Source of the DNA: Pseudomonadales bacterium
GTDB taxonomy: Bacteria; Pseudomonadota; Gammaproteobacteria; Pseudomonadales; Azotimanducaceae
Reading direction: 5' to 3'
DNA: 64,000 nucleotides
Assembly: GCA_022827905.1 (NCBI GenBank)
Contig: JAJEIQ010000001.1
Span: 103,739-167,738, forward strand
Position 1 is the stretch's first letter. Every line of letters starts with the position of its first letter. Shown in pieces: positions 10,182 to 46,824 of this stretch. The translations under genes were made by a program, and so were the position numbers. The notes under the pieces are model-generated. The model did not search any database, was not told the DNA's origin, and saw only the letters and a list, made by a program, of their open reading frames with translations.

Positions 10182-10738
10182 GGTCGAACCTTCATGCGCG
10201 ATCGGTCGTGGTCCGGCGAGGGCCCTGCATGCTCAGACGCACAAAAACGACCGCAACCCCATCCGGCTCCGGGACCGGAAGCCACTGGCCGAACCGGCAA
10301 ATCGGCGTCCACGTGGACAACGGACGAGGGCGGAACGATAGGGGGCCCGGTCGTGAACTCCTGCCGGCACTGACGCCCCGCCGACGTATCGGCTCGGCCA
10401 AGCCGTGCCGAAACGGCGGACAGGGCTCCGATAATCGGGAGCAGCTCAGCTTTTCGAGGGCTTCGCGAGCAAGGCCACGACCAGGTCGGTCAATCCCACG
10501 GGACGACCGAACAGGTACCCGCCGACTCCCCGTCAGTCCGGATTTTCCGCCCGTGGAACGGCCGGCAGTTCCAGATACTTCAGGATCCTCAGCGTCCGGG
10601 TCGCTCGATCTCGGTGACCCGCAAAACTCTCACACCGAATCGCTCTCGAGGCCGCCATCGATCCATAGCCCACGCCGGCAGACACGCTGTCCGGTCTCTC
10701 GCAACCTCATGAACCCAGGCTGACGCAGGCTATGAGGA
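10182..10738. other. 557-base gap with a possible EAL-domain remnant
   Basis: No intact gene is seen. On the minus strand, 10446 to about 10530 reads GGYLFGRPVGLTDLVVALLAKPSKS then stop, which resembles the last residues of an EAL (cyclic-di-GMP phosphodiesterase) domain; nothing upstream extends it convincingly. The left end of the IS91-like element should lie near the right edge of this gap, but I cannot fix it because this family lacks terminal inverted repeats. Confidence 0.35.
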
Positions 10739-12360
10739 TTGCTACAACCCAGCGGCGCTGACCGGTATGTCTACGAACGCCACCGTCCGGAAGAGACACC
10801 GCTCTACCGAATCGTCGAGACTCACTACCCCCGGTTTCTCGCCAGACTCGAAGCCGAAGGCGGATCGCTCCCGGCATTCGTCAAGCGGGAGTTCGACGAT
10901 TACCTGAAGTGCGGTTTGCTCGAAAACGGCTTCCTGCGCGTCAAGTGCGACGCCTGCAGCCACGAGCACCTCGTTGCGTTCTCCTGCAAACGCCGCGGCT
11001 TTTGCCCCTCTTGCGGTGCCCGCCGGATGATCGAGTCGGCTGCACATCTCGTCGATCACGTTCTACCCGAGCAACCCATCCGACAGTGGGTGCTCACCTT
11101 CCCCTATCCCCTGCGTTTCCTGTTCGCCGCCCAGCCCCAGGTACTGAGCCAGGTGCTCGGCGTCGTCTACCGTGCGATCTCGACTGACCTTCTCAAGAGG
11201 ACCGGATTCACCGTCGCCTCCGGCGCGAAGACCGGTGCCGTCACCCTCATCCAGCGTTTCGGCTCGGCGCTCAACCTCAACATTCACTTCCATATGCTCT
11301 TTCTCGACGGGGTGTACGATTTCAAAGGACGCCGCCCGACGTTTCATCGGGCACCGCGGCCGACTCCTGCCGAACTCACGAAGCTGTTGCATACCATCGG
11401 CCAGCGGGTGGCCCGTTTGCTCGGACGCCTTGGCCTGCTCGTGCGCGACGCAGACAGCGACTACCTCGACTTCGAGCCCGGTGAGGCTTTCGATCGGCTG
11501 GTCGGCGCCTCGATTCACTACCGGATCGCCATCGGGCCCAACGCCGGCAGGAAGGCATTGACCTTGCGCACCGTCCCGGTACAGTCCGAACCCTTCCCAT
11601 CCACCTTGCTCGCCAGGCTACCGGGCTTTTCGCTCCACGCCGCCACCGTCTGTGAAGCCGCCCAACGCGACAAGCTCGAAAAGCTCTGTCGCTACATCGC
11701 ACGGCCCGCCATCGCCAACGAGCGGCTCTCGATCAATGAGCGAGGACAAGTCATCTATCGGTTCAAGCAGCCGTTTCGCGACGGCTCCACCCACATCGTC
11801 CTCGAGCCACTCGACTTCATCGCCCGCCTGGCGGCTTTGGTTCCGCGTCCGCGTTTGAACCTCACCCGGTTCCACGGCGTGTTCGCGCCGAATTGCAAGC
11901 ATCGCGAGTGCGTCGTGCCAAAACGCAAACCTCGCCACGAAAAGCCGGATGAGCCCCTTGCCCCCTTGACTTGGATGCAGCGCCTGAAACGCGTCTTCGC
12001 CATCGACATCGAGACCTGCCCCAAGTGCGGTGGCACGCTGCGCGTCATCGCCTGCATCGAAAATCCCGATGTCATCGCCACGATCCTCGAGCACATTCGT
12101 GTACGCGAGGCAGCCACAACTGCCAATCCGAGAGCGTCTCCGCTCAACACAGAGCACCCCGCCGCGCGATACCAGGACAGGCTTCCGTAGAAAACGACCG
12201 CCTGACGCTATGCTGCGACCGCCACACATGTAACCGCCGTTTCGCGCGGCCTTTCCGTCTCCAGCGCCCACCGCCACATCCTCAACGGACGCCTCTGAAG
12301 ACTTCCCCAGAGCGCCCCGTCAATCAACCGTACTTCGCAACCATCCGGTTTCGAGCGGTT
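10700..12360 (+). mobile_element. IS91-like rolling-circle insertion element, approximate ends
   Basis: The limits are estimates. The right end is placed where CocE-homologous coding sequence resumes on the minus strand (between about 12355 and 12385), leaving ~170 non-coding bases after the transposase stop, which should hold oriIS. The left end is assumed shortly before the transposase start. IS91 elements neither need inverted repeats nor duplicate their target, so the sequence does not show sharp borders. Confidence 0.6.
10739..12190 (+). CDS. IS91-family transposase (HUH, Y2 type)
   Basis: A 483-residue transposase. The N-terminal zinc-binding domain shows CDAC...CKRRGFCPSCGARRM; the HUH motif of rolling-circle replicases is NIHFHML. 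A second CPKCGG zinc motif lies near the C-terminus (residue ~430). IS91 transposases nick oriIS and mobilise single-stranded copies, often carrying neighbouring DNA. The tracked start is TTG; I see no better in-frame ATG, and the initiation signal is not clear. It reads towards the truncated CocE gene, so the oriIS end should be between its stop and that gene. Confidence 0.9.
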   Translation: MLQPSGADRYVYERHRPEETPLYRIVETHYPRFLARLEAEGGSLPAFVKREFDDYLKCGLLENGFLRVKCDACSHEHLVAFSCKRRGFCPSCGARRMIESAAHLVDHVLPEQPIRQWVLTFPYPLRFLFAAQPQVLSQVLGVVYRAISTDLLKRTGFTVASGAKTGAVTLIQRFGSALNLNIHFHMLFLDGVYDFKGRRPTFHRAPRPTPAELTKLLHTIGQRVARLLGRLGLLVRDADSDYLDFEPGEAFDRLVGASIHYRIAIGPNAGRKALTLRTVPVQSEPFPSTLLARLPGFSLHAATVCEAAQRDKLEKLCRYIARPAIANERLSINERGQVIYRFKQPFRDGSTHIVLEPLDFIARLAALVPRPRLNLTRFHGVFAPNCKHRECVVPKRKPRHEKPDEPLAPLTWMQRLKRVFAIDIETCPKCGGTLRVIACIENPDVIATILEHIRVREAATTANPRASPLNTEHPAARYQDRLP

Positions 12361-13104
12361 ATTCGTCCTATCCGCGGGAAAGGCCTCGTACGAGTTGTTG
12401 TGGTTGATGAAGTCGGTCATCGCCGTCCACATTTCCGCGAAGGCGTAGGCGAAGACGCCGCCGGGCTGCAGCAGCAGCGCGTCCCAGCCGGTATGGAACG
12501 GCACGATCGCCTTCAGCGCTTCGGGCTGCGCCGCCGCCACGGCGAACTGCGACCAGCCCTCGTAGGAGCCGCCGATCATGCCCACGTTGCCGTCGCTCCA
12601 GGGCTGCGCGGCAATCCAGTCGACGATGGCGCCGCCGTCCTCGACGAACCGTTGGGTCATCAGGTCGTTCCAGCCGAAAGACGCGCCGGTGCCGCGCATG
12701 TCGGCGGCCACGTACGCATAGCCGCGCGCCAGGAAGAACTCCCAGGGAACCAGCGCCACCTCGCCGGTTTCGGGATCGATCGACATGCGGTGGTACGGGG
12801 TGTAGCGGAAGATCACCGGAAAGGCCGTTGGCGCTTCGCCCTTGCCGGCATAGCCGGTCGGCAACACCGCATCGACGGCGAGGCGCACGCCATCCGCCGC
12901 GGCCACGAAGTGCGACCGGCGCTTGTGGCCGGTCCACTCGACCGGGCTCGTGCCCTCCAGGGACAAGGGGCTGGTCCGCACTTCAGGCGGTGCCGGGCCG
13001 GCCCCCGTTTCGTCCCCCGGGGCGCCGCCTTCGCAGGCGGCCAGCAAAGGAACGCACAGCAGAAGCCTGGCCATCAGGCCGATTGCGTAAGCTGGGGATT
13101 GCAT
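12208..13104 (-). pseudogene. CocE/NonD (S15) hydrolase lipoprotein truncated by the IS91-like element
   Basis: The start at 13104 is preceded by GAGGAG; a lipoprotein signal follows (LLLCVPLLAAC). The first ~245 residues match the alpha/beta-hydrolase half of X-Pro dipeptidyl-peptidase/cocaine-esterase proteins, with GYAYVAADMRGTG and the nucleophile in GGSYEGWSQF. Homology ends around EAFPADR near 12370, and the last ~50 codons come from the IS-side sequence. The catalytic Asp and His and the C-terminal jelly-roll domain are missing, so the enzyme should be inactive. It starts 6 bases after the cupin stop and is the last gene of the GntR operon. The 3' half is not elsewhere in the window. 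Confidence 0.75.
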
Positions 13105-13110: not shown

Positions 13111-13677
13111 CTACTCCTCGTTGAAGGTGGCGAGCTTCTTGAATGCGCCCAGCACCTCGCCGCCGAAGCGCCCGTCGATTTCCCGGCCGACGCTGGGCGG
13201 CACGCAGACGTCGTCGCGTGCGTCCACGGCGCCGGTGATCACGGTCAGCAGCACCGCGTCCTCTTCGCCGGCGTTGCTGAAGCCCCGGTAGGCGCCGGGC
13301 GGGCACGAGAAGGTGTCCCACTTGCCGAGCGTCACCCTTTCCTCCCCCTCGGGGCCGACCCGGAACTCGATCGTGCCGTCGAGCACCACGAAGGTCTCGT
13401 AGGTGTTGTCGTGGGCGTGCAGGCAGGGCCCCTGCCCCGGCGGCATGATCGAGACGTTCATGGTGGTGCCCGCCGCCCCGTAGATCGCCGCCGTCTCGCC
13501 GAAGGGGTTCTTGGTCTGCTCGATGATGATCGGCCTGAGATCCCGGGCGAAGATCACGTCCATGGCCTCCTGCGGCACCCAGTCGAGGTCCTTGGCCGTG
13601 GACATCCGCTTGAGATCCCCGAAGCGCGCCACGCGACTTTGGATCTCCTCGGCGGTCATGCTTCTTTTCGCTTCCAT
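13111..13677 (-). CDS. cupin-domain protein
   Basis: 188 residues; the start at 13677 follows a very strong ribosome site (AAGGAGGAAAGGAGACA). A single cupin_2 beta-barrel is seen: PGQGPCLHAHDNTYETFVVLDG (motif 1 with His, His, Glu) and the second motif in GKWDTFSCPPGAYRGFSN, where the usual His is absent. Metal binding through motif 1 is likely; substrate unknown. It sits between the MetE-like gene and the truncated CocE gene in one leftward transcription unit, so it may process the same substrate. Confidence 0.75.
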   Translation of the reverse strand: MEAKRSMTAEEIQSRVARFGDLKRMSTAKDLDWVPQEAMDVIFARDLRPIIIEQTKNPFGETAAIYGAAGTTMNVSIMPPGQGPCLHAHDNTYETFVVLDGTIEFRVGPEGEERVTLGKWDTFSCPPGAYRGFSNAGEEDAVLLTVITGAVDARDDVCVPPSVGREIDGRFGGEVLGAFKKLATFNEE

Positions 13678-13719: not shown

Positions 13720-14922
13720 TCATCCCCACAGTCGTTGCGTGGCGATGGCCGCGCCGTCCGCCATGGCCTTCATTTTCGCCCACACCACGTCCGGCGCCAC
13801 CATGGTGTAGCCCGCGAAGGTGGAGAACCCGCAGTCGGTGTTGGCGACCACCCGCTCCCGGTCGCCGATCACGTCCACCCAGTGGCAGAGGCGGTTGGCC
13901 ACCAGCTGCGGGTGCTCCAGCATGTTGGTGGTGACATCGATGACGCCCGGGAACATGACCAGGTCGTCGGGCAGCGGCATGTCGCGGAACAGGTCCACCT
14001 CGTGGGCGTGGCGCGGATTGGCGCAGGCCAGCGAAAGGCCACCCACGTTGGCCTTGTAGATGATGGGCAGGATCGACTCCAGGGCGACATCGTCGCAGTG
14101 GGGGCCGTCCCAGTTGCCCCAGCAGACGTGCAGGCGCACCCGGTCCTTCGGAATGTTCGAAAGCGCCTCGTTGAGTGCCGCCACATGCACTTCCATGCGC
14201 TGCTGGAACGCCTTCAGGGGCCGGTCGACGAACAGGATCTGGCGCTCCAGGGCGAGGTCCGGGGCATCGAGCTGCAGGATGTGGCCCCGGGAGACGATGT
14301 GCTCGTACTCCCGCCGCAGCTCGCGGGCCAGGGCGAAGACGTAATCCTCGTCACGCGGATAGGCGGGGTTGTCCGGGCTGCGCAGCAGCGTGGTGGCCAG
14401 GATGCCCGGGGTGACGGCGGTGACGAAGGTGCCCGTGAATTGGCTGCTCGCATCCGGTTCCGCCGCGAGCGCGTCCGCGAACAGGTCGAGTTCCTCCTTC
14501 GCCTGGGTCAGTTCCGGGTCGTAGCGCACGGCGTCCACGCACTCCGGGGTCGCCCACACGGAAGCGGACTTGCCGGCGGTGGACTGCCCCGCCGAGCGGC
14601 TGGCCACCAGCTTCGCATAGCCCGGGAACTTGGCGAAGTCCGTGACCGTGCCGCGCTTGGCCTCGCCGCCGAAGCCGGTCATGCGGTCCTTGGCATAGAA
14701 GGAAAAGCCGATGCGCGGCAGTTCGCCGTCGCCGGCAATGTCGATGCCCGCAGCCGCCTGCTCGCGAACCACTTCCCTCAGGCCGCTGAGCACCTCCGCT
14801 TGGAACGCGCCGCGGTCAACGTCCTCGCCGGCTTCCATGCTGCCGAGCATGTCGAGCAGCGCCGGGCCCCGGGGCAGGCTGCCGACATGGGTGACCAGTA
14901 TGCGATCGTCGCTGTGTTGCAT
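13720..14922 (-). CDS. MetE C-terminal-like, cobalamin-independent methyl/alkyl transferase
   Basis: 400 residues with the UROD/MetE-like TIM barrel: THVGSLPRGPALLDML at the N-terminus, GIDIAGDGELPRIGF, zinc ligands in HVCWGNWDGPHCDD and again VANTDCGFSTFAG. Family members move methyl groups from folate or alkyl groups between thiols on zinc. At 400 residues it lacks the N-terminal half of true MetE, so it is not expected to be the housekeeping methionine synthase; the epoxyalkane:CoM transferase-like and other single-barrel subfamilies are alternatives. The start is 3 bases downstream of the GntR stop, so it is co-transcribed with that regulator. Confidence 0.8.
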   Translation of the reverse strand: MQHSDDRILVTHVGSLPRGPALLDMLGSMEAGEDVDRGAFQAEVLSGLREVVREQAAAGIDIAGDGELPRIGFSFYAKDRMTGFGGEAKRGTVTDFAKFPGYAKLVASRSAGQSTAGKSASVWATPECVDAVRYDPELTQAKEELDLFADALAAEPDASSQFTGTFVTAVTPGILATTLLRSPDNPAYPRDEDYVFALARELRREYEHIVSRGHILQLDAPDLALERQILFVDRPLKAFQQRMEVHVAALNEALSNIPKDRVRLHVCWGNWDGPHCDDVALESILPIIYKANVGGLSLACANPRHAHEVDLFRDMPLPDDLVMFPGVIDVTTNMLEHPQLVANRLCHWVDVIGDRERVVANTDCGFSTFAGYTMVAPDVVWAKMKAMADGAAIATQRLWG

Positions 14923-14924: not shown

Positions 14925-15626
14925 TTATCCCCTCCCGCTTAGGTCCGCGTTGCGGATCGTTTCGATGTAGTTGTCGAAATAGGCCATCTTGATGTCGATG
15001 GCGCGCTCGGCATCGCTCGCCAGCAGCGCCTCCGTCGCATCCGCATAGGCCTTAACCACTCGGCCCTGGTCCACCGCCGGATGCAGGTTGGCCACCTCGC
15101 GATGCACCAGCCCTAGGTGCAGCCGCTGGATCAGCTTGGTCAGGTAGTGGTTTCCGGCGATGTCGTGCAGCACGAAGTAGTAGTTGGTTACAGCCCTCAG
15201 GAGATCGGTAATGGGTGCGTCCGCAAAGGCGCGCACCTCATCCACAGCCGCCAGGATGCGCTGGCGATTGGCGGAATCCTCGAGGGCCGGCACGGCAAGC
15301 GTCAGGCTCATGTAAACGACGCCTTTCGCGGCCTGGTAGATCTGCACGATCTCATCCGCCGAAAGCCGCTTGACCACCGCGCCGCGGTAGGGGCGGATTT
15401 CCACCAGCCCTTCGCCGGCGAGCAGGCGCAGCGCCTCGCGGATCGGGCCGACTCCGAGCCCCGAGTTGGCCGCGACCTCCGCTTCCACCAGCCGGTGCCC
15501 GGGCAGGTACAGGCCGTTGCGGATGCCCTCCTCGATGTGCTCGACTGCCCGTTCCATCCGATGCTGGCCCGTGGCTCTCTCCGGGTGCGCGGCGCTGCCG
15601 CTTCGTATCGGGGTGACGCTCGACAT
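14925..15626 (-). CDS. GntR-family transcriptional regulator, FadR/FCD type
   Basis: 233 residues. The N-terminal winged helix is plain (NGLYLPGHRLVEAEVAANSGLGVGPIREALRLLAGEGLVEI, PYRGAVVKRLSADEI). The C-terminal all-helical FCD ligand-binding domain follows, with His residues that could bind a metal for carboxylate ligands (ITDLLRAVTNYYFVLHD, HLGLVHREVANLH). It heads the leftward operon with MetE-like, cupin and CocE genes and faces the TonB receptor across 113 bases holding a perfect palindrome, so it probably controls both units. FCD regulators usually respond to small organic acids. Confidence 0.88.
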   Translation of the reverse strand: MSSVTPIRSGSAAHPERATGQHRMERAVEHIEEGIRNGLYLPGHRLVEAEVAANSGLGVGPIREALRLLAGEGLVEIRPYRGAVVKRLSADEIVQIYQAAKGVVYMSLTLAVPALEDSANRQRILAAVDEVRAFADAPITDLLRAVTNYYFVLHDIAGNHYLTKLIQRLHLGLVHREVANLHPAVDQGRVVKAYADATEALLASDAERAIDIKMAYFDNYIETIRNADLSGRG

Positions 15627-15664
15627 GGGCGCATCATACTCGACGCGGCAAAAATATCATCGTT

Positions 15665-15682
15665 GAAATCATCAATGATTTC
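15665..15682. promoter_or_regulatory. palindromic operator candidate for the GntR regulator
   Basis: GAAATCAT-CA-ATGATTTC is a perfect 8-bp inverted repeat with a 2-bp spacer, centred in the AT-rich divergent space between the GntR gene (start 15626) and the TonB receptor (start 15740). TTGAA and TTCAA flank it. Position and symmetry suit a dimeric GntR site; binding is inferred. Confidence 0.6.
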
Positions 15683-15739
15683 ATTCAACATCTATGCAAT
15701 CCATCCACAGCTATTCCAGACGGCGCAAGGGGGACAGCC

Positions 15740-18049
15740 ATGAGAATCGCAGCCACCATCAGCACTTGCCTTGTCCTGATGAGCCTTTCCGGTCTTCCGA
15801 GCGCTCAGGACACCGGGCCGGGCCTAGTCGAGGAAATCGTCGTCACGGCCCGATTCCGGGAGGAGAGCGCCCAGGATGTCGGCGCATCCATCAGCGCCTA
15901 CGGCGAACAGGCGATCCGCGACCTCGGCGTGGAGAACATGTCTGATCTCGCATTCGTCACGCCGGGCCTGAACCTGCAGGACCGGGGGCCCAACCGCAAC
16001 GAGATTTCGGTACGGGGCGTCGGGCGGCTGGTCTTTCCCCAGGACCTGCTGCCGGTTTCCAACGCCATCGGCACCTATTTCGACGATGTCCCGCTGAACA
16101 TCAACATCGGCACCCAGATCGACATGCGTTTTTTCGACCTGGAGCGGGTGGAGGTGCTGCGCGGTCCCCAAGGGACCTTGTTCGGCGAAGGCGCGGAGGG
16201 CGGCGCGGTGCGCTATGTCTCCAAAGACCCCAGCCTGGAAGCCGCCCAAGCCATTGTGGAAGCCGATTTCAACAGGGTGAGCCACGGCGAATCCGCGTTC
16301 GGCGCCCGGGCCGCCTTGAGCATCCCCTTGGCCCGGGACCGGGCCGGATTGAGGCTGGTGGTCAACCGGGTTACTCAGGGCGGCTTCGTCGACAACGTTG
16401 CCACCGGCACCGATGACATCAACGACTTCGAAGCGGTGAACGTGCGCGCCGTGTTCCTGGCGGAACCGAACGACCGATTCCGCATCCGCCTGGTCGCCAT
16501 GCACGAAGAGATGGACCAGGACACCTTCTGGTTCGTGACCGGCGACCCGGACGACCTGGAACTCGATTTCTTTTCCGACGACGGCTTCGTCGAGGACGAC
16601 TACGATCTGGTGAGCGCCAACCTGAGCTACGACTTCGGTCCCCTGAAGGTGGAGTCCATCACCTCCTACCTGGAACGCGACCGCCATCGCTACCAGATCG
16701 ACAACGTCTTCGGCGGCCTGAACACCGTTGCGGTCACCTTTGCGTTCGGCTCCTTCACGCGGGGCGACACCTTCGCCGACGACAAGACCTCTTGGGAGCA
16801 GTTCTCCCAGGAGGTTCGCCTACTTTCCGATTTCGACGGGCCGTTCAATTTCGTGGCCGGGTTGTTCTATCGGGACTTCGACCTTGAAATTACCGGCACC
16901 AACTGTTCGCCCGTTTACCTAGCCGTGGGCTTTCCCGCCGAATGCGGCGACGACATCTTTGCCGTGCTGAACCCGGCCGGCGAACCCCGCGGCCTCACCA
17001 CCAACAGCGGAGAGCAGATCTCGGCCTTCTTCGAGGCAACCTTGTCCATCAACGACCGGTTGCGGCTGATCGCCGGGCTGCGCAGCCACAACGAGGATGT
17101 CGATCTGGCCACCGGTGGGGCCACATTCAGCCTGTTCGGCTTCAACACCGTCGGCGCCCTGTCCGAATCGGAATCCATCGACGAACTGCTGCCCAAGGTC
17201 GGCCTGGAATTCGACCTGAGCGACGCCGCCCTCCTGTACCTGACCTATTCCGCCGGCGCCCGCAACGGCAACCTCAACTCACCGATCACCATGGGGCAGA
17301 TCGAAGCGGCTTTCGGACCCGGTTCGTCCGACCGCTACCGCACTTACCATCCCGAACGCACCGATGCCTTCGAACTCGGCATCAAGTCGCTGCTGCTGGA
17401 CGGCACCCTGCAATTCAATGCCTCCGCCTACTACAACATCATCGATGACATGCAGGCAGCAACCTTTCCCGGCGGCCTGTTTGCCATATTGGAAAACGTG
17501 GGAGACGGCCATGCCGTCGGCGGCGACCTCGAAGTGACTTGGCGACCCACCGACTCGCTGTTGCTGTTCGGCAGCCTGAGCGTAACCGAGGCGGAAAACG
17601 ACGACGAGTTCATCTTCCGGGACAGTCCGCCGCCTTTGCCCAAGGTGATCACGCCCGAGGGCACCGACAACCCCTATACGCCGAAGACTTCCCTATCCGC
17701 AGGGGCGCAGTACGCTTGGACCATCGAGGGCATGGGACCGGGCACGAACCTCGTGTTCAACGTCAACCTGCAGCATACCGGCAAGTACAAGATCACATTC
17801 GAGGGCGATGCCGAGGAACTCGGGAACTTCCAGACGCTCAACGCCTCCATCGGGCTTGTCGCCGATCGCTGGGAAGTGAACCTGCGCGCGGACAACCTGC
17901 TGGACAACGTCGAGGTGGTTTCCATTCAGGAACTCGACAGCGACCTCTCCCCGTTCCTGGGCCCGCTGCAGCCGGCCGACTACAGTTTCAACGAGGTGAG
18001 CCACAACCGGCCGCGCACGCTGAGCCTGACGGCCCGCTATTCGTTCTAG
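15740..18049 (+). CDS. TonB-dependent outer-membrane receptor
   Basis: 769 residues, intact. A Sec signal peptide (ending about ...SGLPSAQ) is followed by a TonB-box-like stretch (LVEEIVVTARFRE), a plug domain (VTPGLNLQDRGPNRNEISVRGV, LERVEVLRGPQGTLFGEGAEGG) and a 22-strand-type barrel ending in ARYSF with terminal Phe. It imports a large or scarce substrate across the outer membrane using TonB energy; the substrate is not deducible. AAGGGGGACAGCC precedes the start. First gene of a rightward set with BNR, M19, DUF819 and GGT genes. The paralogue at 49933-52284 is very similar but carries an in-frame TAG. Confidence 0.93.
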   Translation: MRIAATISTCLVLMSLSGLPSAQDTGPGLVEEIVVTARFREESAQDVGASISAYGEQAIRDLGVENMSDLAFVTPGLNLQDRGPNRNEISVRGVGRLVFPQDLLPVSNAIGTYFDDVPLNINIGTQIDMRFFDLERVEVLRGPQGTLFGEGAEGGAVRYVSKDPSLEAAQAIVEADFNRVSHGESAFGARAALSIPLARDRAGLRLVVNRVTQGGFVDNVATGTDDINDFEAVNVRAVFLAEPNDRFRIRLVAMHEEMDQDTFWFVTGDPDDLELDFFSDDGFVEDDYDLVSANLSYDFGPLKVESITSYLERDRHRYQIDNVFGGLNTVAVTFAFGSFTRGDTFADDKTSWEQFSQEVRLLSDFDGPFNFVAGLFYRDFDLEITGTNCSPVYLAVGFPAECGDDIFAVLNPAGEPRGLTTNSGEQISAFFEATLSINDRLRLIAGLRSHNEDVDLATGGATFSLFGFNTVGALSESESIDELLPKVGLEFDLSDAALLYLTYSAGARNGNLNSPITMGQIEAAFGPGSSDRYRTYHPERTDAFELGIKSLLLDGTLQFNASAYYNIIDDMQAATFPGGLFAILENVGDGHAVGGDLEVTWRPTDSLLLFGSLSVTEAENDDEFIFRDSPPPLPKVITPEGTDNPYTPKTSLSAGAQYAWTIEGMGPGTNLVFNVNLQHTGKYKITFEGDAEELGNFQTLNASIGLVADRWEVNLRADNLLDNVEVVSIQELDSDLSPFLGPLQPADYSFNEVSHNRPRTLSLTARYSF

Positions 18050-18078
18050 CGTTCCTTCCCAAAGGCGTCGAGAGCTTT

Positions 18079-19575
18079 ATGAGAGCGTTCCCTTCGAAGA
18101 CTGGCCTGACCATTGCATTGACCGCCGCCGTATCGACCGCCGGCTGCGGTGCCGGAAACGAGCCGGTGAAAGAGGAAACCGCGGAAAGCGCGGCCTCAAC
18201 CCAATCCGTGCAACTCGTCGTTAGCGATCCGATCCGCATCGGAACGGGAAAGTCGCCGCTGGACGGCGACTGCGGGAAACTGAGCGACGGTTACACGTAT
18301 CCGGACGATAGCGAAACCGACCCACGCCTCGTCGTATCGGCCGGTAACCCTGCGCGCATTGCGGTGGCCTTCATGCGCGATCCGGTGCTGGCCATCTCGA
18401 CGGCGGTTTCCGAGGATGGGGGCATCACCTGGCGGGAGGCCGAGCCCCCTGGGCTGTCACCCTGCACCGGCACGTCCTACAACAGCTACGGCGACCAGGA
18501 TCTCGGCATCGGCGCCGACGACCGCCTGTATCTGGCATCGGTGCAGGGCGATTTCCTGCCCGAGGGGGAACCCCTCGTGATCGGGGCGGAATACTGGATG
18601 AACAGCGCGGTGGTGGTATCGACCTCCGACGACTTCGGCCTGACCTGGTCGCAGCCCCGGGTCGTCTCACCCCTGGGGGAATACCAGCACACCACGCTCA
18701 TCGCCACCGACCCCGACAGCGCCGGCACCGCCCACGTCGCCTGGCATGTGCACCGGAACCCCAGCCAGCCGGAGGGGACCGAATCGCACTTGGAAGATGG
18801 TCACATCTATCTGGCATCGACCACGGACGGCGGCGCCTCCTGGAGCCGACCCGAACCGGTCATGGCGGCTCGGGGCGCACTAGATCTGGTGCGCTTCGCC
18901 GACGGCGAACTACTGGCCGCGGCACTTAAAGGCGAGGACCCGATCACGGCGGCCACCGTGTTCAGCCGCCGCACCGCGGACGGCTGGACCGCACCGCAGC
19001 CGCTGCCGCTGCAGTCGAACACCGGCGCGTTCATGCATCCCGAAGGGGAAATGGTGCTCGCCATCGACGCGCCGCTGTACCTGGACTCGGACGGCACCCT
19101 GCATCTGGTTGCATCGACCTACGATCCCGAAACCAACCGGGGAGCGGTGGCCGTTGCTTCGTCAGCGGACCGCGGCGTGACCTGGAGTGCGCCATCGACC
19201 GTGGCCGAGGTGGATGGGCCAGCATGGAATGCGGCCGTTGGCGCCGCACCCGATGGGGCGATCGGCGTCTTCTGGTACGACGCCCGCGACGATGTGCCTG
19301 GCGATGGCCGCATTACGACGAGGGCCCGCTTTGCGGCGTCCGTGGACGATGGCGCAAGCTGGACGGAAACGGCGCTGTCACAGCCGTTCGACCTTGCCAA
19401 GGGACCCCGGCCGCATGTGCTTCTTTATCTGGGCAACTATTTCGAGGTCAAGCCCACCGGCCCCGGCGCCTTCGCTGTCGCCTATGCGGTGACCCCGCCC
19501 CTGTCCGAGGGAGCGGCCGATTTGCACTTCGTCAACGTGTCCATCCATCGCACCAGCTACCGTTCAAGTCCTTGA
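18079..19575 (+). CDS. exported BNR/sialidase-like beta-propeller lipoprotein
   Basis: The true start is 18079 (MRAFPSKTGLTIALTAAVSTAGC); the tracked ORF begins inside the receptor gene. The lipobox Cys is residue 23. Repeated Asp-box/BNR motifs are seen (SEDGGITWREAE, STSDDFGLTWSQP, TTDGGASWSRPE, SSADRGVTWSAP, SVDDGASWTETA), giving a six-bladed sialidase-type propeller of ~498 residues. The sialidase catalytic residues are not recognisable, so a binding or scaffold role is as likely as glycosidase activity. It starts 29 bases after the TonB receptor and probably works with it at the cell surface or periplasm. Confidence 0.8.
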   Translation: MRAFPSKTGLTIALTAAVSTAGCGAGNEPVKEETAESAASTQSVQLVVSDPIRIGTGKSPLDGDCGKLSDGYTYPDDSETDPRLVVSAGNPARIAVAFMRDPVLAISTAVSEDGGITWREAEPPGLSPCTGTSYNSYGDQDLGIGADDRLYLASVQGDFLPEGEPLVIGAEYWMNSAVVVSTSDDFGLTWSQPRVVSPLGEYQHTTLIATDPDSAGTAHVAWHVHRNPSQPEGTESHLEDGHIYLASTTDGGASWSRPEPVMAARGALDLVRFADGELLAAALKGEDPITAATVFSRRTADGWTAPQPLPLQSNTGAFMHPEGEMVLAIDAPLYLDSDGTLHLVASTYDPETNRGAVAVASSADRGVTWSAPSTVAEVDGPAWNAAVGAAPDGAIGVFWYDARDDVPGDGRITTRARFAASVDDGASWTETALSQPFDLAKGPRPHVLLYLGNYFEVKPTGPGAFAVAYAVTPPLSEGAADLHFVNVSIHRTSYRSSP

Positions 19576-19631
19576 GCCGAGTCTCCCCAAGCCGCTATGG
19601 TGGGCGTGCCTAAGCTAAGGGATCACCCCCC

Positions 19632-20645
19632 ATGAACGCGGAACCTGCAAGCGCAGCCATCTCGGCGCGCGCCACTGAACTGCTCGCCGATGCAATCGTG
19701 TGGGACAACCATGCCTGCATGCCGGTGCGGCCCGGGGATGTCGAATTCCTCGACCAGCTGGAACGGCACCGGCGCAGCGGCGCCTGTTTCGTCAGCCTTA
19801 ACGTCTCCTTCGACCGGTTTCCCTGGCACTTCGGCTTCAAGATGCTGGCCACCTTCCGCAGCTGGATCAAGCGGCACCCCGAGCGGTACCTGCTGGTGAA
19901 CGAGGTCGGCGACATCCATCGCGCCAAGCGGGAGGGAAAGCTGGGCGTCGCCTTCGACCTCGAAGGGGCGGTGGCGGTGGACGACCTGCCCGAGCTGGTC
20001 GAACCCTATTACGCCCTCGGGGTCCGCTGGATGCTGATCGCCTACAACCTCAACAACCGCGTCGGCGGCGGCTGCCAGGACGACGATGCGGGGCTCACCG
20101 AGTTCGGGCGGCGCGTGATCGACGAGATGGCGCGGGTAGGCATGGTACTCTGCTGCACCCACACCGGTTACCGCACCGCCCGGGAAGCGATCGAGTATTC
20201 GAGCAATCCGGTGATCTTCTCGCACTCCAACCCGCGCGCGCTGTGGGATCACGAGCGCAACATCCCCGACGACCTGATCGTGGCTTGCGCCCAAAGCAGC
20301 GGCGTCATCAACGTTAACGGCATCGGCATATTCCTCGGCGACAACGACAACTCCACGGAGGCCATCGTCCGCCACATCGACTACGTCGCCTCCTTGGTGG
20401 GGCCGGATCACGTCGGGCTGGGGCTCGACTTCGTGTTCGATGCCTCGGAGCTCGACGATCTGGTCGAGAACAACCCGGAGCTGTTCCCGCCGGAGAAAGG
20501 CTATGGAAAGGGCCTGCGCATGGTGGAGCCGGAACGGATACCCGTGATCGCGGAGCGCCTGCTGCAACTCGGCTGGGACGACGAGGCGGTGCGCGGCCTG
20601 CTCGGCGGAAACAACCTGCGCGTTGCGGAGCAGGTGTGGCGTTGA
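19632..20645 (+). CDS. M19 membrane dipeptidase, near-canonical metal site
   Basis: 337 residues without an obvious signal peptide. M19 ligands are largely present: first-motif His in IVWDNHACMP (second Asp replaced by Cys), bridging Glu in VAFDLEGAVAV, His in CCTHTGYRT, His in FSHSNPRAL and Asp in HVGLGLDFVFD. It should hydrolyse dipeptides, possibly with a D-residue at the C-terminal side as known for bacterial M19 enzymes. It is third in the TonB receptor operon (56 bases after the BNR gene, 28 before DUF819). Of four M19 homologues in the window this is the one most likely to be an active metalloenzyme. Confidence 0.87.
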   Translation: MNAEPASAAISARATELLADAIVWDNHACMPVRPGDVEFLDQLERHRRSGACFVSLNVSFDRFPWHFGFKMLATFRSWIKRHPERYLLVNEVGDIHRAKREGKLGVAFDLEGAVAVDDLPELVEPYYALGVRWMLIAYNLNNRVGGGCQDDDAGLTEFGRRVIDEMARVGMVLCCTHTGYRTAREAIEYSSNPVIFSHSNPRALWDHERNIPDDLIVACAQSSGVINVNGIGIFLGDNDNSTEAIVRHIDYVASLVGPDHVGLGLDFVFDASELDDLVENNPELFPPEKGYGKGLRMVEPERIPVIAERLLQLGWDDEAVRGLLGGNNLRVAEQVWR

Positions 20646-20673
20646 GCACGGGCGCTTCGGTAGGGCGTGCTAA

Positions 20674-21801
20674 ATGCTAATTGACGCCAACAATCACCTG
20701 GCGCTGGTCGCGCTGCTGTTCTCCATCGTGGGCCTGTGCAGCTGGGCGGAGCGCTTCTCCTGGGCGAGCCGGGTCTCCGCCCCGGTTCTGATCATCCTGG
20801 TTGCGCTGGTGCTCTCCAACCTCGGGCTGATTCCGCGCGAGGCGCCGAGCTATTCCTTCGTTTCCGAGTATTTCGTGATGGCGTCCATTCCGTTGCTGCT
20901 GTTCAAGGCGGACCTGCGCATGATTATTGCGGAAACGGGCCGCCTGCTGTTTGCGTTCCTGATCGCTGCCGGGGGCACGGTGCTGGGCGTCGTTGCCGCT
21001 TACCTGCTGGTGCCCGTGGGCGATGTGGGCGCCCAAGCCGCCGCGGTGATCACGGGCGGCTACACCGGGGGCGGCATGAACTTCGTGGCGGTCTCGAAGG
21101 TGGTTGGACTGGAGGACCCCACCCGCTTCGCGGTGGTGCTCGGGGCGGAAGCGAGCGTGGCGCTTTCGTACCTGATGCTGCTGTCGCTGATGCCCGCCTT
21201 CGCTTGGTTTGCGCGTTGGGATGCAGCCAAGGCGGCCCCGGGACTGCCGGCCACCCAATCTGAACAGAAAGCAACCGCCGACGGCCCCGACCTGACCCAC
21301 ATGGGGCTGGCGCTCGGGCTGAGCCTCGCCGTTTGCGCGGTCGGCGTCGGCCTGGCGAACTTGGCAGGACAATCGCGCTTCTCGATCCTCGCCATCACCC
21401 TCATCGCCATCGCCATAGCCAACTTGGCGCGCCGGCAGATGCAGGCGCTCAGGGGCGACTTCACGCTCGGGATGCTGCTGCTCTACGTCTTCTTCGGGGT
21501 GTTCGGCGCCGGCGTCGATCTGGTCTCCATGCTGCGCCAAGCGCCAATGCTCATGCTCTTCGCCCTGGTGATCATCGTGGTGCATGCCGCCGTCGCCTTC
21601 GGCCTCGGACGCCTGCTCGGCTTCAGCGCGCGGGAAGTGGCCATCGCCTCCAACGCCTGCGTGCTCGGCCCACCCACCGCGGCGGCCCTCGCGGCGCGTT
21701 CCGGATGGCATGAGCTGGTCACCCCTGGAATCCTGTGCGGAATTTTCGGTTACCTGATCGGCAACTTTCTCGGCGCGGCGGTGTTCGAGTTGCTCCGGTA
21801 A
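20674..21801 (+). CDS. DUF819 family integral membrane protein
   Basis: 375 residues, about ten transmembrane helices. The glycine-rich signature ITGGYTGGGMNFVAVSKVVG and the late SNACVLGPPTAAALAARSGW motif are those of DUF819 (YjcL-like) proteins, which resemble secondary transporters of the DMT/BASS-like type but have no proven substrate. The start ATG 20674 lies 28 bases after the M19 stop. In this operon it could move dipeptide products across the inner membrane; that is inference from position only. Confidence 0.85.
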   Translation: MLIDANNHLALVALLFSIVGLCSWAERFSWASRVSAPVLIILVALVLSNLGLIPREAPSYSFVSEYFVMASIPLLLFKADLRMIIAETGRLLFAFLIAAGGTVLGVVAAYLLVPVGDVGAQAAAVITGGYTGGGMNFVAVSKVVGLEDPTRFAVVLGAEASVALSYLMLLSLMPAFAWFARWDAAKAAPGLPATQSEQKATADGPDLTHMGLALGLSLAVCAVGVGLANLAGQSRFSILAITLIAIAIANLARRQMQALRGDFTLGMLLLYVFFGVFGAGVDLVSMLRQAPMLMLFALVIIVVHAAVAFGLGRLLGFSAREVAIASNACVLGPPTAAALAARSGWHELVTPGILCGIFGYLIGNFLGAAVFELLR

Positions 21802-21891
21802 GGCGCCCCGCTAGCCTGCAAGTGCCATGTGAGGGTACCCCCGTCGGCCTGCGTCCTTGTCTGCATCGTCCCGACGGAAGCCCGAACCGCC

Positions 21892-23550
21892 ATGCATCGC
21901 CGCGACCTGCTGACTTCGACCCTGGCCGGGTCGGCCGCCCTCGCGTTCGCGCCCCGAGCGTTCGCCGGGGGCAATCGCGACTGGGCTGCCATGGCCCGTC
22001 GGGACCTCAAGCCGATTCAGCCCAATCTCGCCAACGTTTACGCCACTGGCCGCAGCACGATGGCATCGAGCGACCATCCTTACGCCACGGAAGCGGCCCT
22101 GTGGGCGCTCGAGCGCGGTGGCTCGGCAGCAGATGCGTACATGACGGCAGCCATCGCCCAGTGCGTTCTGGAGCCCACCATGACCACCCTGGGCGGCGGC
22201 TTCGGCATGGCGTTCTGGGAAGCGGAATCGCGGCAGCTTGCCCAGGGGGGCGGCTTCTTCGCCTTTCCGAGCGGCGCCCCGCCCGGCGAACCCTACGACG
22301 AACGCAAGTCCTGGACCGCCTGGGGCGCCATGGTGCCTGGCTTCGTGCGTGGGCTTCAGGTCTGCCATGCGGCCTGGGGCAAGCTGCCCTGGCAGGACCT
22401 TTTCGAACCGGCCATCGTCTTTGCGGAAGAGGGCTTCGTCCTCGACCACCTGCTGTGGGGCTACGCCAAGGCGACCCGCAAGATGATCGGCCGCTTTCCC
22501 GGCCCCGGCCGCGATGCCTGGTTCCGGGACGGCTACATGCTCGGCGTCGGCGATGCGCTCCGGCAGCCGGCGCTGGCAGCGACCCTGAAGGCGCTGCGGG
22601 ACGAAGGGCCGGACTACTTCTACACCGGGCCGTTCGCCCGGGAACTTGCGTCACAAGTCCAGCGCCGCGGCGGGGGCATCACCGAAGACGACCTGAAGAA
22701 CTTCGACCAAGCCTACGTCTCACCGCCCTGGAAGCCGGGCGAGGACGGCGGAACGCCCTACCGGGGATACGAGGTGGCGCCCGTTTCCGGCGCCCTCTTC
22801 CAGCTGGGGCTGCGCATCTGCGAAGCCGCGGACCTGAGGGAGCTGGGCCGCCCGACGGAATCGGTCGAGGCGCTGCACACTCAGGTGCGACTGGCCCAGG
22901 AACTCTGGATACGCGGCCGGGACCTCACCCCGGAAAACCAAGCGGAGTTCGTCTCCGAACAGCACGCCGCCGAGGTGCTGGAAGCGATCCGCAAGGGGCC
23001 GCCGCGCCCGTTCCGGGGCTTTTCCGCGGCGACCTGCGCACTGACCATCGTCGATGCGGACGGCAACGTGGCGGCGGGCACCCATTCGAGTTCCTCGGAG
23101 CCGTTCGGCACGGGCATCAATGTCGGCGGCGTCATCCTCAACCGTGCCACCTTCATCCGCAAATTTACCGACATGCCCAAGGGCTTCTCGACCCAGCTCT
23201 GGCTGTTTCGGGACGGCCAGCCCGCGTTGGCCATGGCGACGCCGAGCCGCTCGCTCATGGAATGCCTGCTGCAGGGCGCGGCGAACACTATCGAATACGG
23301 CATGTCCCTCACCGACGCCGTGTCCGCGCCCCGGTTCGGCCATCCGCATCCGGGGATGACCGCCATTGAGATCGAAGGGGACTTCAGCGAGGAGGTGCTG
23401 ACCGCGCTGGCGGCCAAGGGACACGACCTCTACCGCGTCTCGCCGAAGGACATGAACATGGGCAGCATCCACGGTGTGCGCGTGGGCCAAGACGGCATGA
23501 TCGAGGGCGTTGCGGACCCGCGGCGGCGGGGTCTCGCCAAGGGCGCCTGA
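21892..23550 (+). CDS. gamma-glutamyltransferase, Tat-exported, Thr nucleophile retained
   Basis: The start is set at ATG 21892 (MHRRDLLTSTLAGSAALAF, twin-arginine signal) rather than the tracked GTG at 21829. About 552 residues of the Ntn-hydrolase GGT fold: STMASSDHPYATEAALWALERGGSAADAY near the N-terminus and AATCALTIVDADGNVAAGTHSSSS at the autoprocessing junction. By eye the nucleophile position is Thr (AATCAL), followed by the conserved VDxDGN. GGT removes or transfers gamma-glutamyl groups, for example from glutathione or gamma-glutamyl peptides, in the periplasm. It closes the TonB/BNR/M19/DUF819 set, 90 bases after DUF819, and converges with the next GGT gene with a 4-base gap. Confidence 0.88.
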   Translation: MHRRDLLTSTLAGSAALAFAPRAFAGGNRDWAAMARRDLKPIQPNLANVYATGRSTMASSDHPYATEAALWALERGGSAADAYMTAAIAQCVLEPTMTTLGGGFGMAFWEAESRQLAQGGGFFAFPSGAPPGEPYDERKSWTAWGAMVPGFVRGLQVCHAAWGKLPWQDLFEPAIVFAEEGFVLDHLLWGYAKATRKMIGRFPGPGRDAWFRDGYMLGVGDALRQPALAATLKALRDEGPDYFYTGPFARELASQVQRRGGGITEDDLKNFDQAYVSPPWKPGEDGGTPYRGYEVAPVSGALFQLGLRICEAADLRELGRPTESVEALHTQVRLAQELWIRGRDLTPENQAEFVSEQHAAEVLEAIRKGPPRPFRGFSAATCALTIVDADGNVAAGTHSSSSEPFGTGINVGGVILNRATFIRKFTDMPKGFSTQLWLFRDGQPALAMATPSRSLMECLLQGAANTIEYGMSLTDAVSAPRFGHPHPGMTAIEIEGDFSEEVLTALAAKGHDLYRVSPKDMNMGSIHGVRVGQDGMIEGVADPRRRGLAKGA

Positions 23551-23554: not shown

Positions 23555-25411
23555 TCAGTACGCGAGAGCGCGGCCGTTCGAGTACGCGTGGGACGCGGCC
23601 ATGAGATCGCCGGTGTCGGGATCCCGGCTGATGCCGGCCCACAGGCCTTGGGTGTAGCGGCGCTGTTCGGCGGGCAGCTGTTCCACCGGCAGGCCGCTGG
23701 CCTCAAGCACCGCCTCGTCGAACTCCCCCTCCATGACCCGGACCACCCACTTGGGCACGGCTTCGGCGGACGCCTCGTCGAGGACCGGCCTCGGCAGGAA
23801 GAACGCCGGGGCATCCACCGCCTCCTTGACGTTCATGCCGAAGTGAATGGTGCCGAACAGGGACTGGAACGTCTGCTGGTGCAGGCCCGTGGCCATGGAA
23901 GCGAACGCGACCACCGGGCGCCCGTTCCGGGTGAGGATGCCCACCTCGATCGGATCCGCCACCCGACCGCCGGGGCCAGCGGCGGCCACCATGGCTTTCT
24001 GGTTGACGGCCGGGTCGCCGATGGAGATGCCGTCGACGATGATCCCGGTCGCGCCCCACACCACGCAGTTGATGGAGTGGGTGACGGCGGTCATGTTGCC
24101 CCACCGGTCGACGGCGATCACGGTGTCGGAATGGGACGGGGGCGTCTCGGCGTACTGGGCCGGCAGCGCGCCTTCCTCCATGCGCGACCACAGGGCCGCC
24201 GCGGTTTGCGGCCGGATGCGGCTCGCGTGGCTGAGATCGAGCCCCGGATAGAGCAGTTCCTGGGTTTCCGGCGGCAGCATCGACAGCATCATGTTGAAGG
24301 TGAGGTTCGATGCGCGGCGCAGGGATTCGCCGTTCGTGGACCAATGGCCGAGGGACGCAATGCCCGCCGCCTCGCCGAGGTGCAGCGCCTCGATCATGTT
24401 GACGCCGCCGAAGGACGGCAGGCCGTTCGCGTGCATCCGGTAATCCCCCACGTCCGCCTCCAGGGGCGGGCTCCAAATCACCTCGTAGGCCGCGAGGTCC
24501 TCCAGCGACATGCTGCCGCCGTCCGCCCGCACCGCCGCCACGGCGCGTTCCGCCCACGGACCGGTGTACATGTAGTCGGCGCCTTGGTCCGCGATGGCCG
24601 TGAGGGTGCGCGCCAGGGCTGGCTGGCGGAAAGTCTGCCCTGCCACGAGCCACCCGCCGTCCGCGTTGGTGAATAGGGCCTTCGATTCCGGCAGGCGCGA
24701 CAGCGTGTGCTTGCGCGGCTCAAGGTAGCTGACCAGCCGGGAGTTGAACGGTATCCCGGCCTCGGCAAAATGGATCGCCGGTGCGAAGAGGTGCGGGAAG
24801 TCCAGCTTGCCATAGCGGCCATGCGCCGCCTCCACGGCCTTCATGAAGCCGCCCACCAGCGCGGTGCGCCCGCTCGGTTCGTCGGAGCCGTACAGCTCTT
24901 CTTCCGAACCCATGCCGATGGTGCCGGGAATCGACATCGGATCGTCCTCGCCGAGCACCGCGTTCCAGCCCGCGTTGAGCGAGACGATCTCGTCGGCCGC
25001 GGCGTCGTAATGCACCATGGTCATGATGCCGAAGTAGCTGATCACCGCCCCGGCGCCCAGGGCCACTTGGGTGAGCGCGGTGGTCATGGCGGCATCGACC
25101 GACGACCCGCCCTGGCGCAGGGCTTCGAGCCCCGCCCGCTGGGCGAGGGGGTGGTAGCTGCCGGTGATGGCGCCCTGGGTGCCCTCGGCCAAGGGATTGC
25201 CGGGGAAGTAGACGTCCTCCATCGCTAGGTACGCTTCCCATTCCCCTGGCGGCCAGCTGCCGGGAGACAGGTCGACCGCGGGCGCTTCGGACGATGCGAC
25301 TGCCGCGGACTCGGCCGCGGGCGCGGGCTCGGGCGGGGTCGGTTCCTCCGCGCAGCCGCCGGCCAGCGCGGCGATCAGCAGCGCCCAGGCCAGATGCCGA
25401 AACCGCATCAT
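23555..25411 (-). CDS. gamma-glutamyltransferase-like lipoprotein, Ser at nucleophile position
   Basis: About 618 residues. The start is taken as ATG 25411, which overlaps the M19 stop as ATGA; the tracked ORF uses GTG 25417. A lipoprotein signal ([10 protein letters not shown]) and a Pro/Glu/Ala-rich linker precede the GGT fold ([26 protein letters not shown]). At the processing site the sequence is [25 protein letters not shown]: counting back from the VD-x-x-GN motif places Ser, not Thr, at the nucleophile. Ser can serve in Ntn hydrolases, so activity remains possible. Translationally coupled to the M19 gene. Confidence 0.85.
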
Positions 25412-26553
25412 CCGCACACCTCGGCGAATACCCGCAGGAAGTTCTCGCCGAGGATTCCCCGTACCGCCTCGTCGGAGTGGCCGCGGGCGACCAGGCCCCG
25501 GGTGAAGTTGACGAAGTCCCTCGCATCGTCGTAGCCGACCAGGTTCTGGCGAATGGTGATGCCGTGCTCCGGGCGGAATCCCAGCGCTTCCGTGTTGCGT
25601 CCGATGGTGTCCTCCGCGATCCCATGGCTGAGCATGAAGGGCCAGTCGGTGCCGATGCCGACGTGCTCCCAGCCGACCACGCCGACGATGTGGTCGATGT
25701 GATCGAGCATGACGTCAACGGTCGCCTTGTCCTTGGGCGGCGCCAGGAAGAAGGGCACCGCATAGACGCCGATCAGTCCGCCGGTGTCGGCGATGGCCTT
25801 CAGCTCCTCGTCGGACTTGGCCCGGTCGTGCATGTACACGCCCTCGGCGCTCGTGTGGTTGGCCGTGACCGGCGCCTTCGAGAACGCGCAGGCATCGAGG
25901 GTGGTGCGCCGTCCGCAGTGGGAGGTGTCGATGATGAGCCCGATGTCGTTCATCTTCTCGACCACCTCGATGCCGTAGTGGCTTAAGCCCGCGTTGGTGC
26001 GATCGGTGCAGCCGGCGCCGACAAAGTCTTGCCGGTTGTAGGTGAGCATGACCGAGCGGGTGCCCAGTGCCTTGGCCCGGTCGAACTGCTCGAGTTCCCT
26101 AGGCAGGCCTTCCAGGCCCGGCTGCGCGAACCCGTAGGTGACGTAATCGCCCGCTTCGTGGGCGGTGCGGAAATCGGCGGCCGTAGCCGCAAAGTCCATC
26201 CAAGGAATGGACTGAACCTGTTCGTTCAGGCGCTCAATGGGTTCGAGCGAACGCTCGCTCACGCCGCCCATGGCGAAGCTGGCGGCGCTGTGGCCCTTGC
26301 AGAAGACCTGCAGCGCATCGGACGCGCCCGCCGCGGTCAGCGCATAGGGCAGCTCCATGCCTTCGAGGAACCGCTGCCAAGGATTCATGTCCGCCGGCAG
26401 GCGCTCTTCGACCACGTCCTCCGGCAGCCGATCGTAGAGCGCCGGCCCCCCGGGCCCCATGCTGCACATGTCGATGCTGATGCTGGTGCGATGCAACTCG
26501 GCCGCTCGCTGCTCCTGCTCCGCGCTCAGCCCAAACTCATAGTTTCCGGACAC
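25408..26553 (-). CDS. M19 dipeptidase-like protein with altered metal ligands
   Basis: 381 residues, no signal peptide. The M19 fold is clear: [32 protein letters not shown] (His), [10 protein letters not shown] (His), [11 protein letters not shown] (Asp). The first ligand pair is lost ([11 protein letters not shown] instead of DxHxD), and the bridging Glu position aligns with Gln (YGFAQPG). It is nearly collinear with the 31531-32700 homologue, which shares both changes, so this is a real subfamily and not random decay. Overlaps the GGT start by ATGA and follows the ECF sigma gene by 40 bases. Confidence 0.83.
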
Positions 26554-26593: not shown

Positions 26594-27133
26594 TCACAAG
26601 CGCGATTCCCGCAATTCGGCCAGGGCGCTTGAAACGTACTTCTCGACCATGCTCACCGAGACACCCATGCGTCCGGCGATGTCAGCATAGGAACACCCCT
26701 CCACCCGATGGCACAGGAACGCGCTCGCAGCCTTCTCGCTGACCCGGGCCAGGGCCCTGTCGAAAATCTCGGCCTGCTCGATCTGTTCGGCCCAAAGCGA
26801 CGGGTCGTGTTCTTCGGCGTCCTTGAAACTGCCGTCGAAGGCGTCGAGGGAATCCATCTGGTCGAGCCTGCGCACGGCGCGCCGGCGCCACCGGTCGCGC
26901 AGCAGGTTGGCCGCCGCGGAGAACAGGAATCCCTTGCAGTTCGTGGGCGGTGCCCGATCCACTTGGCGGATCAGCCGAATGTAGAGTTCCTGCAGCAGAT
27001 CATCGGCTTCGGTGTCGCCGACGGTGCGCTGGAAGAAGGCGCGCAATTGGCGGTGATAGGTCGTGTAACTCTCGGCAACGTAGTCGTTGCGCGGCGGCTG
27101 CGCCGCTGGGGCAGCGGTAGCCAGATTGTTCAC
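26594..27133 (-). CDS. ECF-type RNA polymerase sigma factor
   Basis: 179 residues. Region 2 ([27 protein letters not shown]) and region 4 ([40 protein letters not shown]) are both complete, most like FecI-type sigma factors. GTG start at 27133 with GGGGAGGGCAAT just upstream; there is no ATG before residue ~88. No FecR-like anti-sigma gene is adjacent, which is unusual for the FecI group. It lies at the head of the M19/GGT pair, so it may belong to that operon. A large symmetric dyad lies 34 bases upstream. Confidence 0.88.
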
Positions 27134-29216: not shown

Positions 29217-30071
29217 TCAGAAGCCGAGCCGCAGGTTCAACCCGACCGTGCGTGGCCGCAGGCGCGTGGCCAAGTCCTCGAAACCGGGCTGAATGGCGCC
29301 GCCGGTGACCTTGCCGTCCTCGTCGAACAGGTTGTTCACGAAGGCGTAGACGCCCCAGTGGTCCCTCTCCACTCCCACGCGCACCGAACCCTGGGTGATC
29401 TTGTCGCTCTCGGTGGTCACCGAGCCGAAGTTCAGGCTCCGCTCCGTGGTGTGGTCGAGACGCAGATAGACGGTGCCCTGCAGGCCGCTCGAGCCGAGCG
29501 CCCTGCGGTACGATGCCGAAGCGGACACCGTCCACTCGGGGAACAACTGCACCCGCTGCCCGTCGGCGACCACCACGCCGCCGACATCGGTCACGGTCTC
29601 GCCGTACTTGGAGTCGCTGTAGCTTCCGTTCAAGGTCATCTCAAGGCCCTCCACGGGCGCGACGGTGAGGCCGAAATCGATGCCCTTGGCCTTGACCTTG
29701 CCGGCGTTGGTGATGGCGCCGAGCGCCGCCGGAATCACGCTGATCACCGTCTGCAGGTTGTCCCAGTCGATGAGGTAGCCCGCCGTCTCGACGACCACGC
29801 GCCCGTCCGCCAGACGGGCCTTGGCGCCGATCTCGTAGCTCCAGGCCGTCTCCGGCTCCGCGCCGTTGCCGATGTCGAGGCCCACCTGCTCGGCGATGAA
29901 CAGCGAGATGCCCGGCTGCAGGAAGCCGCTGCGGAACCCCTTGGCGACGTTGGCGTAGATCAGCCAGTCGTCGGTGGCCGCCGCGCCCTCCTCGGCAAGT
30001 GCGGCGGGCATGGATAGGGTGAACGGCAATGCCGTCAGCACGGAGAGTAGAGCGGTCTTTCCCAATGTCAT
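29217..30071 (-). pseudogene. TonB-dependent receptor with internal deletion: signal peptide fused to C-terminal barrel
   Basis: The true start is 30071 (MTLGKTALLSVLTALPF) with AAGGAGGAAGC upstream; the tracked ORF start at 30542 is spurious. An intact signal peptide runs straight into DDWLIYANVAKGFRSGFLQPG, a motif about two thirds into a normal receptor, and then continues to a proper C-terminus (VGLNLRLGF, terminal Phe). The plug domain, TonB box and first half of the barrel are absent, yet the frame is preserved through ~284 residues. This looks like an in-frame internal deletion of roughly 450 to 500 codons. The product might still reach the outer membrane, but cannot act as a normal receptor. 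Confidence 0.8.
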
Positions 30072-46731: not shown

Positions 46732-46824
46732 GATTGTGTGTCCGTGTTTGCCGGGTGGACTCGGTATGACGCAGGCCGTCACCCGGCCCGCAACGGCGGG
46801 CAATCCGCCCCCCGGCATCCGGGC

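Follow-up and report, generated by a model that had tools for sequence, protein, structure and literature searches.

Two divergent gene arms in a 64,000-nucleotide stretch of a Pseudomonadales genome (Azotimanducaceae; the whole stretch analysed is called the window here) raise the question of which compound is handled jointly by a TonB-dependent receptor (TBDT), a BNR propeller protein, an M19 dipeptidase-like protein, a DUF819 membrane protein and a GGT-family enzyme. The original prediction was a peptide-uptake system in which outer-membrane import and binding are followed by gamma-glutamyl removal, dipeptide cleavage and inner-membrane transport.

Organization of the locus

All nine genes of the described set are confirmed by Pfam, five on the plus strand (TBDT, BNR, M19, DUF819 and GGT) and four on the minus strand (GntR-FCD, MetE-like, cupin and CocE/S15). 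The features are as follows, with loci of relatives denoted by L numbers.

12208-13104, minus: CocE/S15-type hydrolase, probable lipoprotein, truncated at the C-terminus by an IS91-type element (Pfam S15; L023 alignment)
13111-13677, minus: cupin with HxH...E motif (Pfam Cupin_2; motif; kept in L023, L024, L027 and L028)
13720-14922, minus: MetE-like protein, cobalamin-independent methionine synthase C-domain (Pfam Meth_synt_2; orthologues 87-98%)
14925-15626, minus: GntR/FCD regulator (Pfam GntR and FCD; orthologues 83-96%)
15663-15684, no strand: probable GntR operator (intergenic footprint in L023, L027 and L028)
15740-18049, plus: TonB-dependent receptor TBDT1, non-core (Pfam Plug and barrel)
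18079-19575, plus: BNR propeller, probable lipoprotein with lipobox-like STAGC (Pfam BNR_2; start at 18079; orthologues in L023 and L025-L028)
19632-20645, plus: M19a, dipeptidase-like, without signal peptide, His-x-Cys for His-x-Asp (Pfam M19; alignment; plasmid homologues 55-57%)
20674-21801, plus: DUF819 (CPA/AT clan), predicted inner-membrane transporter (Pfam DUF819; hydrophobic segments; in 7/7 loci including the window)
21892-23550, plus: GGT1, GGT-family Ntn hydrolase, Tat-like signal, Thr nucleophile, gamma-glutamyl pocket lost (Pfam; residue comparison)
23555-25417, minus: GGT2, probable GGT-family lipoprotein, Ser at the nucleophile position (Pfam; residue comparison; THN1 plasmid homologue 45%)
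25408-26553, minus: M19b, divergent M19 without first-motif metal ligands (Pfam; alignment; orthologues 91-99%)
26594-27133, minus: ECF-type sigma factor (Pfam Sigma70_r2/r4_2; syntenic in relatives)

The predicted order of five closely spaced rightward genes opposite a GntR arm is borne out, with gaps of 28-90 bp when measured from in-frame starts (TBDT-BNR 29, BNR-M19a 56, M19a-DUF819 28 and DUF819-GGT1 90 bp). The boundary proposed at 23550 encloses the five plus-strand genes, but GGT2, M19b and the sigma factor continue convergently beyond it and are kept together in relatives. The gene families of the GntR-led arm are those predicted, but its CocE gene is broken: homology to L023, where the intact counterpart has 731 aa, does not return until about 12376, next to an IS91-type transposase (10739-12190). 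The insertion of this Y2-type element spans 10579-12375, and about 1.4 kb of CocE is missing relative to L023.

Signal features, judged by eye, are Tat-like in GGT1 and lipobox-like in BNR, GGT2 and CocE, with none in M19a, MetE-like or cupin. For GGT1 the ATG at 21892, which gives the Tat-like start MHRRDLL, is preferred to the less likely GTG at 21829. The MetE-like protein has the zinc-type residues HxC...C (H265, C267 and C364).

The locus is one module of a hydrolase-rich stretch of contig C71 (G000:C71:45000-167738). This contig makes up 3.8% of the genome and holds five of its six M19 genes, both DUF885 genes and six of its eight GGT genes (nine matches, one gene being in two pieces), an enrichment treated as binomial, which ignores tandem duplication. 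Elsewhere in the window, a TonB receptor at 49870-52284 is split into abutting Plug and barrel ORFs that share one frame, as would be expected from an in-frame stop, and an S9/DPPIV-type peptidase at 44431-46818 extends over two ORFs with parts of the N-terminal domain in each, a possible pseudogene.

Conservation in relatives and exchange of the receptor

When genome contigs were searched with DUF819, six close loci emerged (L023-L028, 85-94% identity), all in MAGs whose titles read Gammaproteobacteria or Pseudomonadales. One further, distant locus (L029) belongs to Woeseiaceae. Some isolate names suggest that the relatives are sponge-associated. In tblastn searches with the window proteins, the DUF819-GGT1 pair and the convergent GGT2-M19b pair are each found in 6/6 close relatives, and the sigma gene in all six (for the L024 genome, in the longer copy L015, from genome G005). 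Cupin and MetE-like genes are present in the four relatives whose contig extends that far, GntR in three, and BNR, which is nearly constant, in five (L023 and L025-L028). M19a occurs only in L023 and L024, thus in three of seven genomes including the window. The core of the locus consists of cupin-MetE-GntR, DUF819-GGT1 and the convergent GGT2-M19b-sigma group, while TBDT1 and M19a are non-core. The locus is conserved, and the gene set, which the original prediction expected to recur in relatives, is shared with six of them.

The receptor varies. In the 95%-identical L023, 332 bp stand in place of window 15749-18045, so that TBDT1 is missing nearly exactly from start to stop codon, and no close TBDT1 counterpart was found in the relatives covering its site. 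The receptors at this site in L028 and after GGT1 in L024 are only about 26% identical to TBDT1. A second receptor in the window (29220-30593) carries an in-frame deletion, after which the signal peptide is followed directly by the C-terminal half, and gives no Plug match; its counterpart is intact in L023 (L023:18547-20868, 774 aa), the locus without TBDT1. The two genomes therefore show reciprocal receptor loss, each keeping one intact receptor in the shared region. Close relatives differ in their outer-membrane receptor but retain the inner machinery and the operator.

The probable GntR operator

The predicted palindrome between the divergent arms is present in the intergenic region, at about 15664-15683, as TGAAATCAT-CA-ATGATTTCA. 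Searched with a pattern of the conserved positions and up to three mismatches allowed, the window has two matches, both at this site on the two strands, against 0.03 expected. The footprint TTGAAAnnnTCnATGATTTC is found in the GntR intergenic region of the window, L023, L027 and L028, where the flanking sequence has diverged; it is absent from the other loci compared. It is also the sole zero-mismatch site in the 4.44-Mb assembly. Since the footprint is conserved and unique in the genome, the palindrome is probably the GntR operator, with TGAAATCATCAATGATTTCA as the putative target sequence. Since the assembly holds no second zero-mismatch site, GntR is probably a purely local regulator of this locus. 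The arrangement, a conserved palindromic candidate operator in a divergent promoter, is that of a GntR-FCD local regulon.

Residues of the GGT-family and M19 proteins

Glutathione is classically broken down by a GGT and an M19 enzyme, and the pairing of these families here, together with the Thr nucleophile of GGT1, speaks for the uptake and degradation of a glutathione-like gamma-glutamyl peptide, as first proposed. The residues of GGT1 and GGT2 argue strongly against it. In an alignment to E. coli GGT (NC_000913), the genome's own canonical GGT, encoded on contig C46, retains R114, T391, T392, T409, N411, D433, S462, S463, G483 and G484 and has Glu at 430. Of the eleven positions, only T391 is retained in GGT1 and its orthologues, T409 being a conservative Ser; the gamma-glutamyl pocket (R114, N411, Q430, D433, S462-S463 and G483-G484) is replaced throughout. 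GGT2 has Ser at 391 and, of the positions checked, retains only the Asn of N411. The substitutions R114L and R114D each abolish E. coli GGT activity (PMC8062742). Both proteins also fall below the curated cut-off of NCBIfam TIGR00066 (357.85 bits), GGT1 at 192.5 and GGT2 at 143. The assignment of GGT1 as a Thr-type member of MEROPS T03 thus holds for its catalytic Thr and fails for the glutamate-binding pocket, and because the glutamate-binding residues are missing from both proteins, a gamma-glutamyl removal step is unsupported. The gamma-glutamyl pathway was rejected on these residues, and we regard it as highly improbable. GGT1 and GGT2 are probably periplasmic GGT-fold amide hydrolases that are not gamma-glutamyl-specific, a pair whose residues speak against annotation as gamma-glutamyltransferases.

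M19a matches Pfam M19 above cut-off (247.8 bits) and was described as near-canonical. It does retain the Glu, the two later His residues, the Arg and the late Asp, but has HxC in place of HxD, so that the full set of metal ligands (HxD, Glu and two His) is incomplete. M19b, M19c and the M19 protein of L085 are without the first motif and have a different residue at the Glu position; a Gln occupies this position in 2i5g, the closest solved relative of M19a. The loss of one canonical ligand in M19a and of several in M19b calls for caution over their predicted activities. The model of M19a (mean pLDDT 54) is too poor to use. Because M19a has no signal peptide, it would act after inner-membrane transport, which reverses the proposed order of cleavage and transport. 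Among the closest plasmid homologues, one from Variovorax (57%) lies beside RidA with serine hydrolase, FAD and MFS genes near, and one from Rahnella (46%) follows a peptide-type ABC importer.

The DUF819 protein and its genomic contexts

The DUF819 protein matches PF05684 with 240 bits, above cut-off, and has multiple hydrophobic segments. The family belongs to the CPA-reentrant fold class, the same as glutamate and Asp/Ala carriers (PMC8396727). Neither a characterised member nor an assigned substrate was found in the papers searched, no solved structure is related by sequence, and no relatives were found on plasmids; the model of the protein (mean pLDDT 51) is too poor to use. A pairing of M15 with DUF819 has been reported in Neisseria (PMC12671195).

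In a set of 40 genomes with DUF819, MR_MLE_C, M19 and M15 neighbours within 10 kb were counted outside the focal genus. Genes of the MR_MLE (epimerase) superfamily lie in this range for 5 of 65 genes against 0.36 expected, M19 in 2 of 42 against 0.25, and M15 in 2 of 14 against 0.10. Combined, these give nine pairs against 0.71 expected (Poisson, P 7e-8), a value that overstates the strength because two genomes (G788 and G654) contribute six of the nine pairs, the families were partly picked after some contexts were known, and the Poisson calculation assumes independent pairs. The individual contexts include DUF819 with M19 and an epimerase (L085), with NlpC/P60 and an epimerase (L071), with a D-Ala-D-Ala dipeptidase-like M15 (L075), and with amidohydrolases and alanine racemase (L029). 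In L081 (9299-13369), DUF819 and GntR/FCD face DgcN and DgcA, which score just under NCBIfam cut-offs, an arrangement that suggests DUF819 as a transporter of the D-glutamate pathway. S9 HMM matches adjoining DUF819 in L062-L066 fall on open frames in GC-rich regions and were left out of the counts.

M19, M15 and epimerase-type genes occur near DUF819 above expectation, but pairing with M19 or GGT is not universal. Numerous members of the family, among them the second DUF819 gene of this genome, have different neighbours (kdsA, SDR and TPP enzymes), and constant association with M19/GGT was rejected, the nearest other relatives adjoining TPP/CN-hydrolase or SDR genes. The window clade is well supported and has a long stem branch (1.13 changes/site), so that inference to the window DUF819 is by family context only; given this stem and the many other contexts, transfer of a substrate to it is weak. 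The broader generalization that DUF819 is a widespread carrier for D-amino-acid dipeptides (or D-glutamate), and that the locus scavenges them by way of TonB, its Ntn hydrolases being GGT-fold enzymes put to a new use, is rather doubtful, though it gives this family a concrete and testable substrate class.

Proposed function and alternatives

Our leading, still tentative, explanation is a locus under GntR control that scavenges small peptide-like compounds with amide linkages, with a D-residue dipeptide as the likeliest product class and DUF819 as the inner-membrane carrier. The strain-exchangeable TonB receptor would bring the compound across the outer membrane, where the BNR lipoprotein may bind or trim it. 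Tat-exported GGT1 and the lipoprotein GGT2 would hydrolyse its amide bond in the periplasm, DUF819 would take the product into the cytosol, and an M19 enzyme there would split it, most likely as a dipeptide with a D-residue. GntR bound to the palindrome would control both arms, and the MetE-like/cupin arm may process the product or inducer by some thiol- or methyl-transfer step. Synteny in six relatives, the genome-unique operator, the signal features and the contexts of DUF819 and of M19a homologues point, tentatively, to this explanation; D-residue dipeptides are possibly the substrate, on reasoning from these contexts.

Ordinary L-peptides would suit a generic scavenging module to which the D-residue link of DUF819 does not apply. 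The island is rich in M19, GGT, S9, S15, DUF885 and beta-lactamase-fold hydrolases, like broad peptide scavengers, and no epimerase, D-amino-acid oxidase or RidA lies next to the locus; since the recurrent neighbours of DUF819 elsewhere include enzymes for D-residue compounds, we consider this somewhat unlikely. Less likely again is that the locus breaks down one particular amide or thiol compound that is not a peptide, such as a host metabolite or a betaine-like compound, with GGT1 and GGT2 as acylases or amidases and the MetE-like and cupin proteins handling thiol or methyl groups. The loss of the GGT pocket, the zinc-type residues of the MetE-like protein and a cupin/MetE-like/alpha-beta hydrolase trio in Ruegeria agree with it, as does an M19a-like gene in L082 (7248-14645) near MttB- and GcvT-like genes, judged by sequence appearance alone; genes that resemble PhzF and dimethylglycine dehydrogenase in their N-terminal sequence also lie there. 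The M19 and DUF819 contexts favour peptides, however, and no gene specific to such a substrate was identified.

Comparison with known systems

No named system with this gene set was found, as the original prediction had it. Glutathione degradation by GGT and membrane dipeptidase employs the same two Pfam families, but with the gamma-glutamyl pocket that GGT1 and GGT2 lack. Like RagAB/SusCD peptide uptake, the locus combines a TonB receptor with an adjacent lipoprotein and genes of peptidase families; it differs in that the lipoprotein is a BNR_2 propeller, the receptor is exchangeable, and no SusD/RagB protein is present among the window genes scanned. DUF819 does occur in muropeptide catabolism clusters of the ykf type (NlpC/P60, L-Ala-D/L-Glu epimerase and dipeptide transporter) in L071, L080 and L085, whereas the window genes scanned include no epimerase or NlpC/P60 and have M19 and GGT-like enzymes instead. 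DUF819 and GntR/FCD adjoin the DgcN-DgcA D-glutamate pathway in L081, but neither Dgc gene lies beside the window locus. Pfam gave no match to L-Ala-D/L-Glu epimerase or DgcA/DgcN among the window genes scanned, and a whole-genome MR_MLE_C search gave a single sub-threshold match, on C25.

A further parallel is on an alphaproteobacterial plasmid, pTHN of Novosphingobium sp. THN1 (L056, 228649-253623), where a grouping of TBDT, GGT2-like, MFS and M19a-like genes recurs with a DAO-type oxidase, among transposase-like ORFs. The plasmid is typed as conjugative, and the module is unannotated in its record. Its M19a-like protein is 55% identical and its GGT2-like protein 45%, the next best plasmid matches being about 27-31%. 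No MetE-like, cupin or BNR homologue was detected there. The TonB receptor, the GGT2-like enzyme and the M19a-like enzyme are common to the two modules, and an MFS transporter stands where the window has DUF819.
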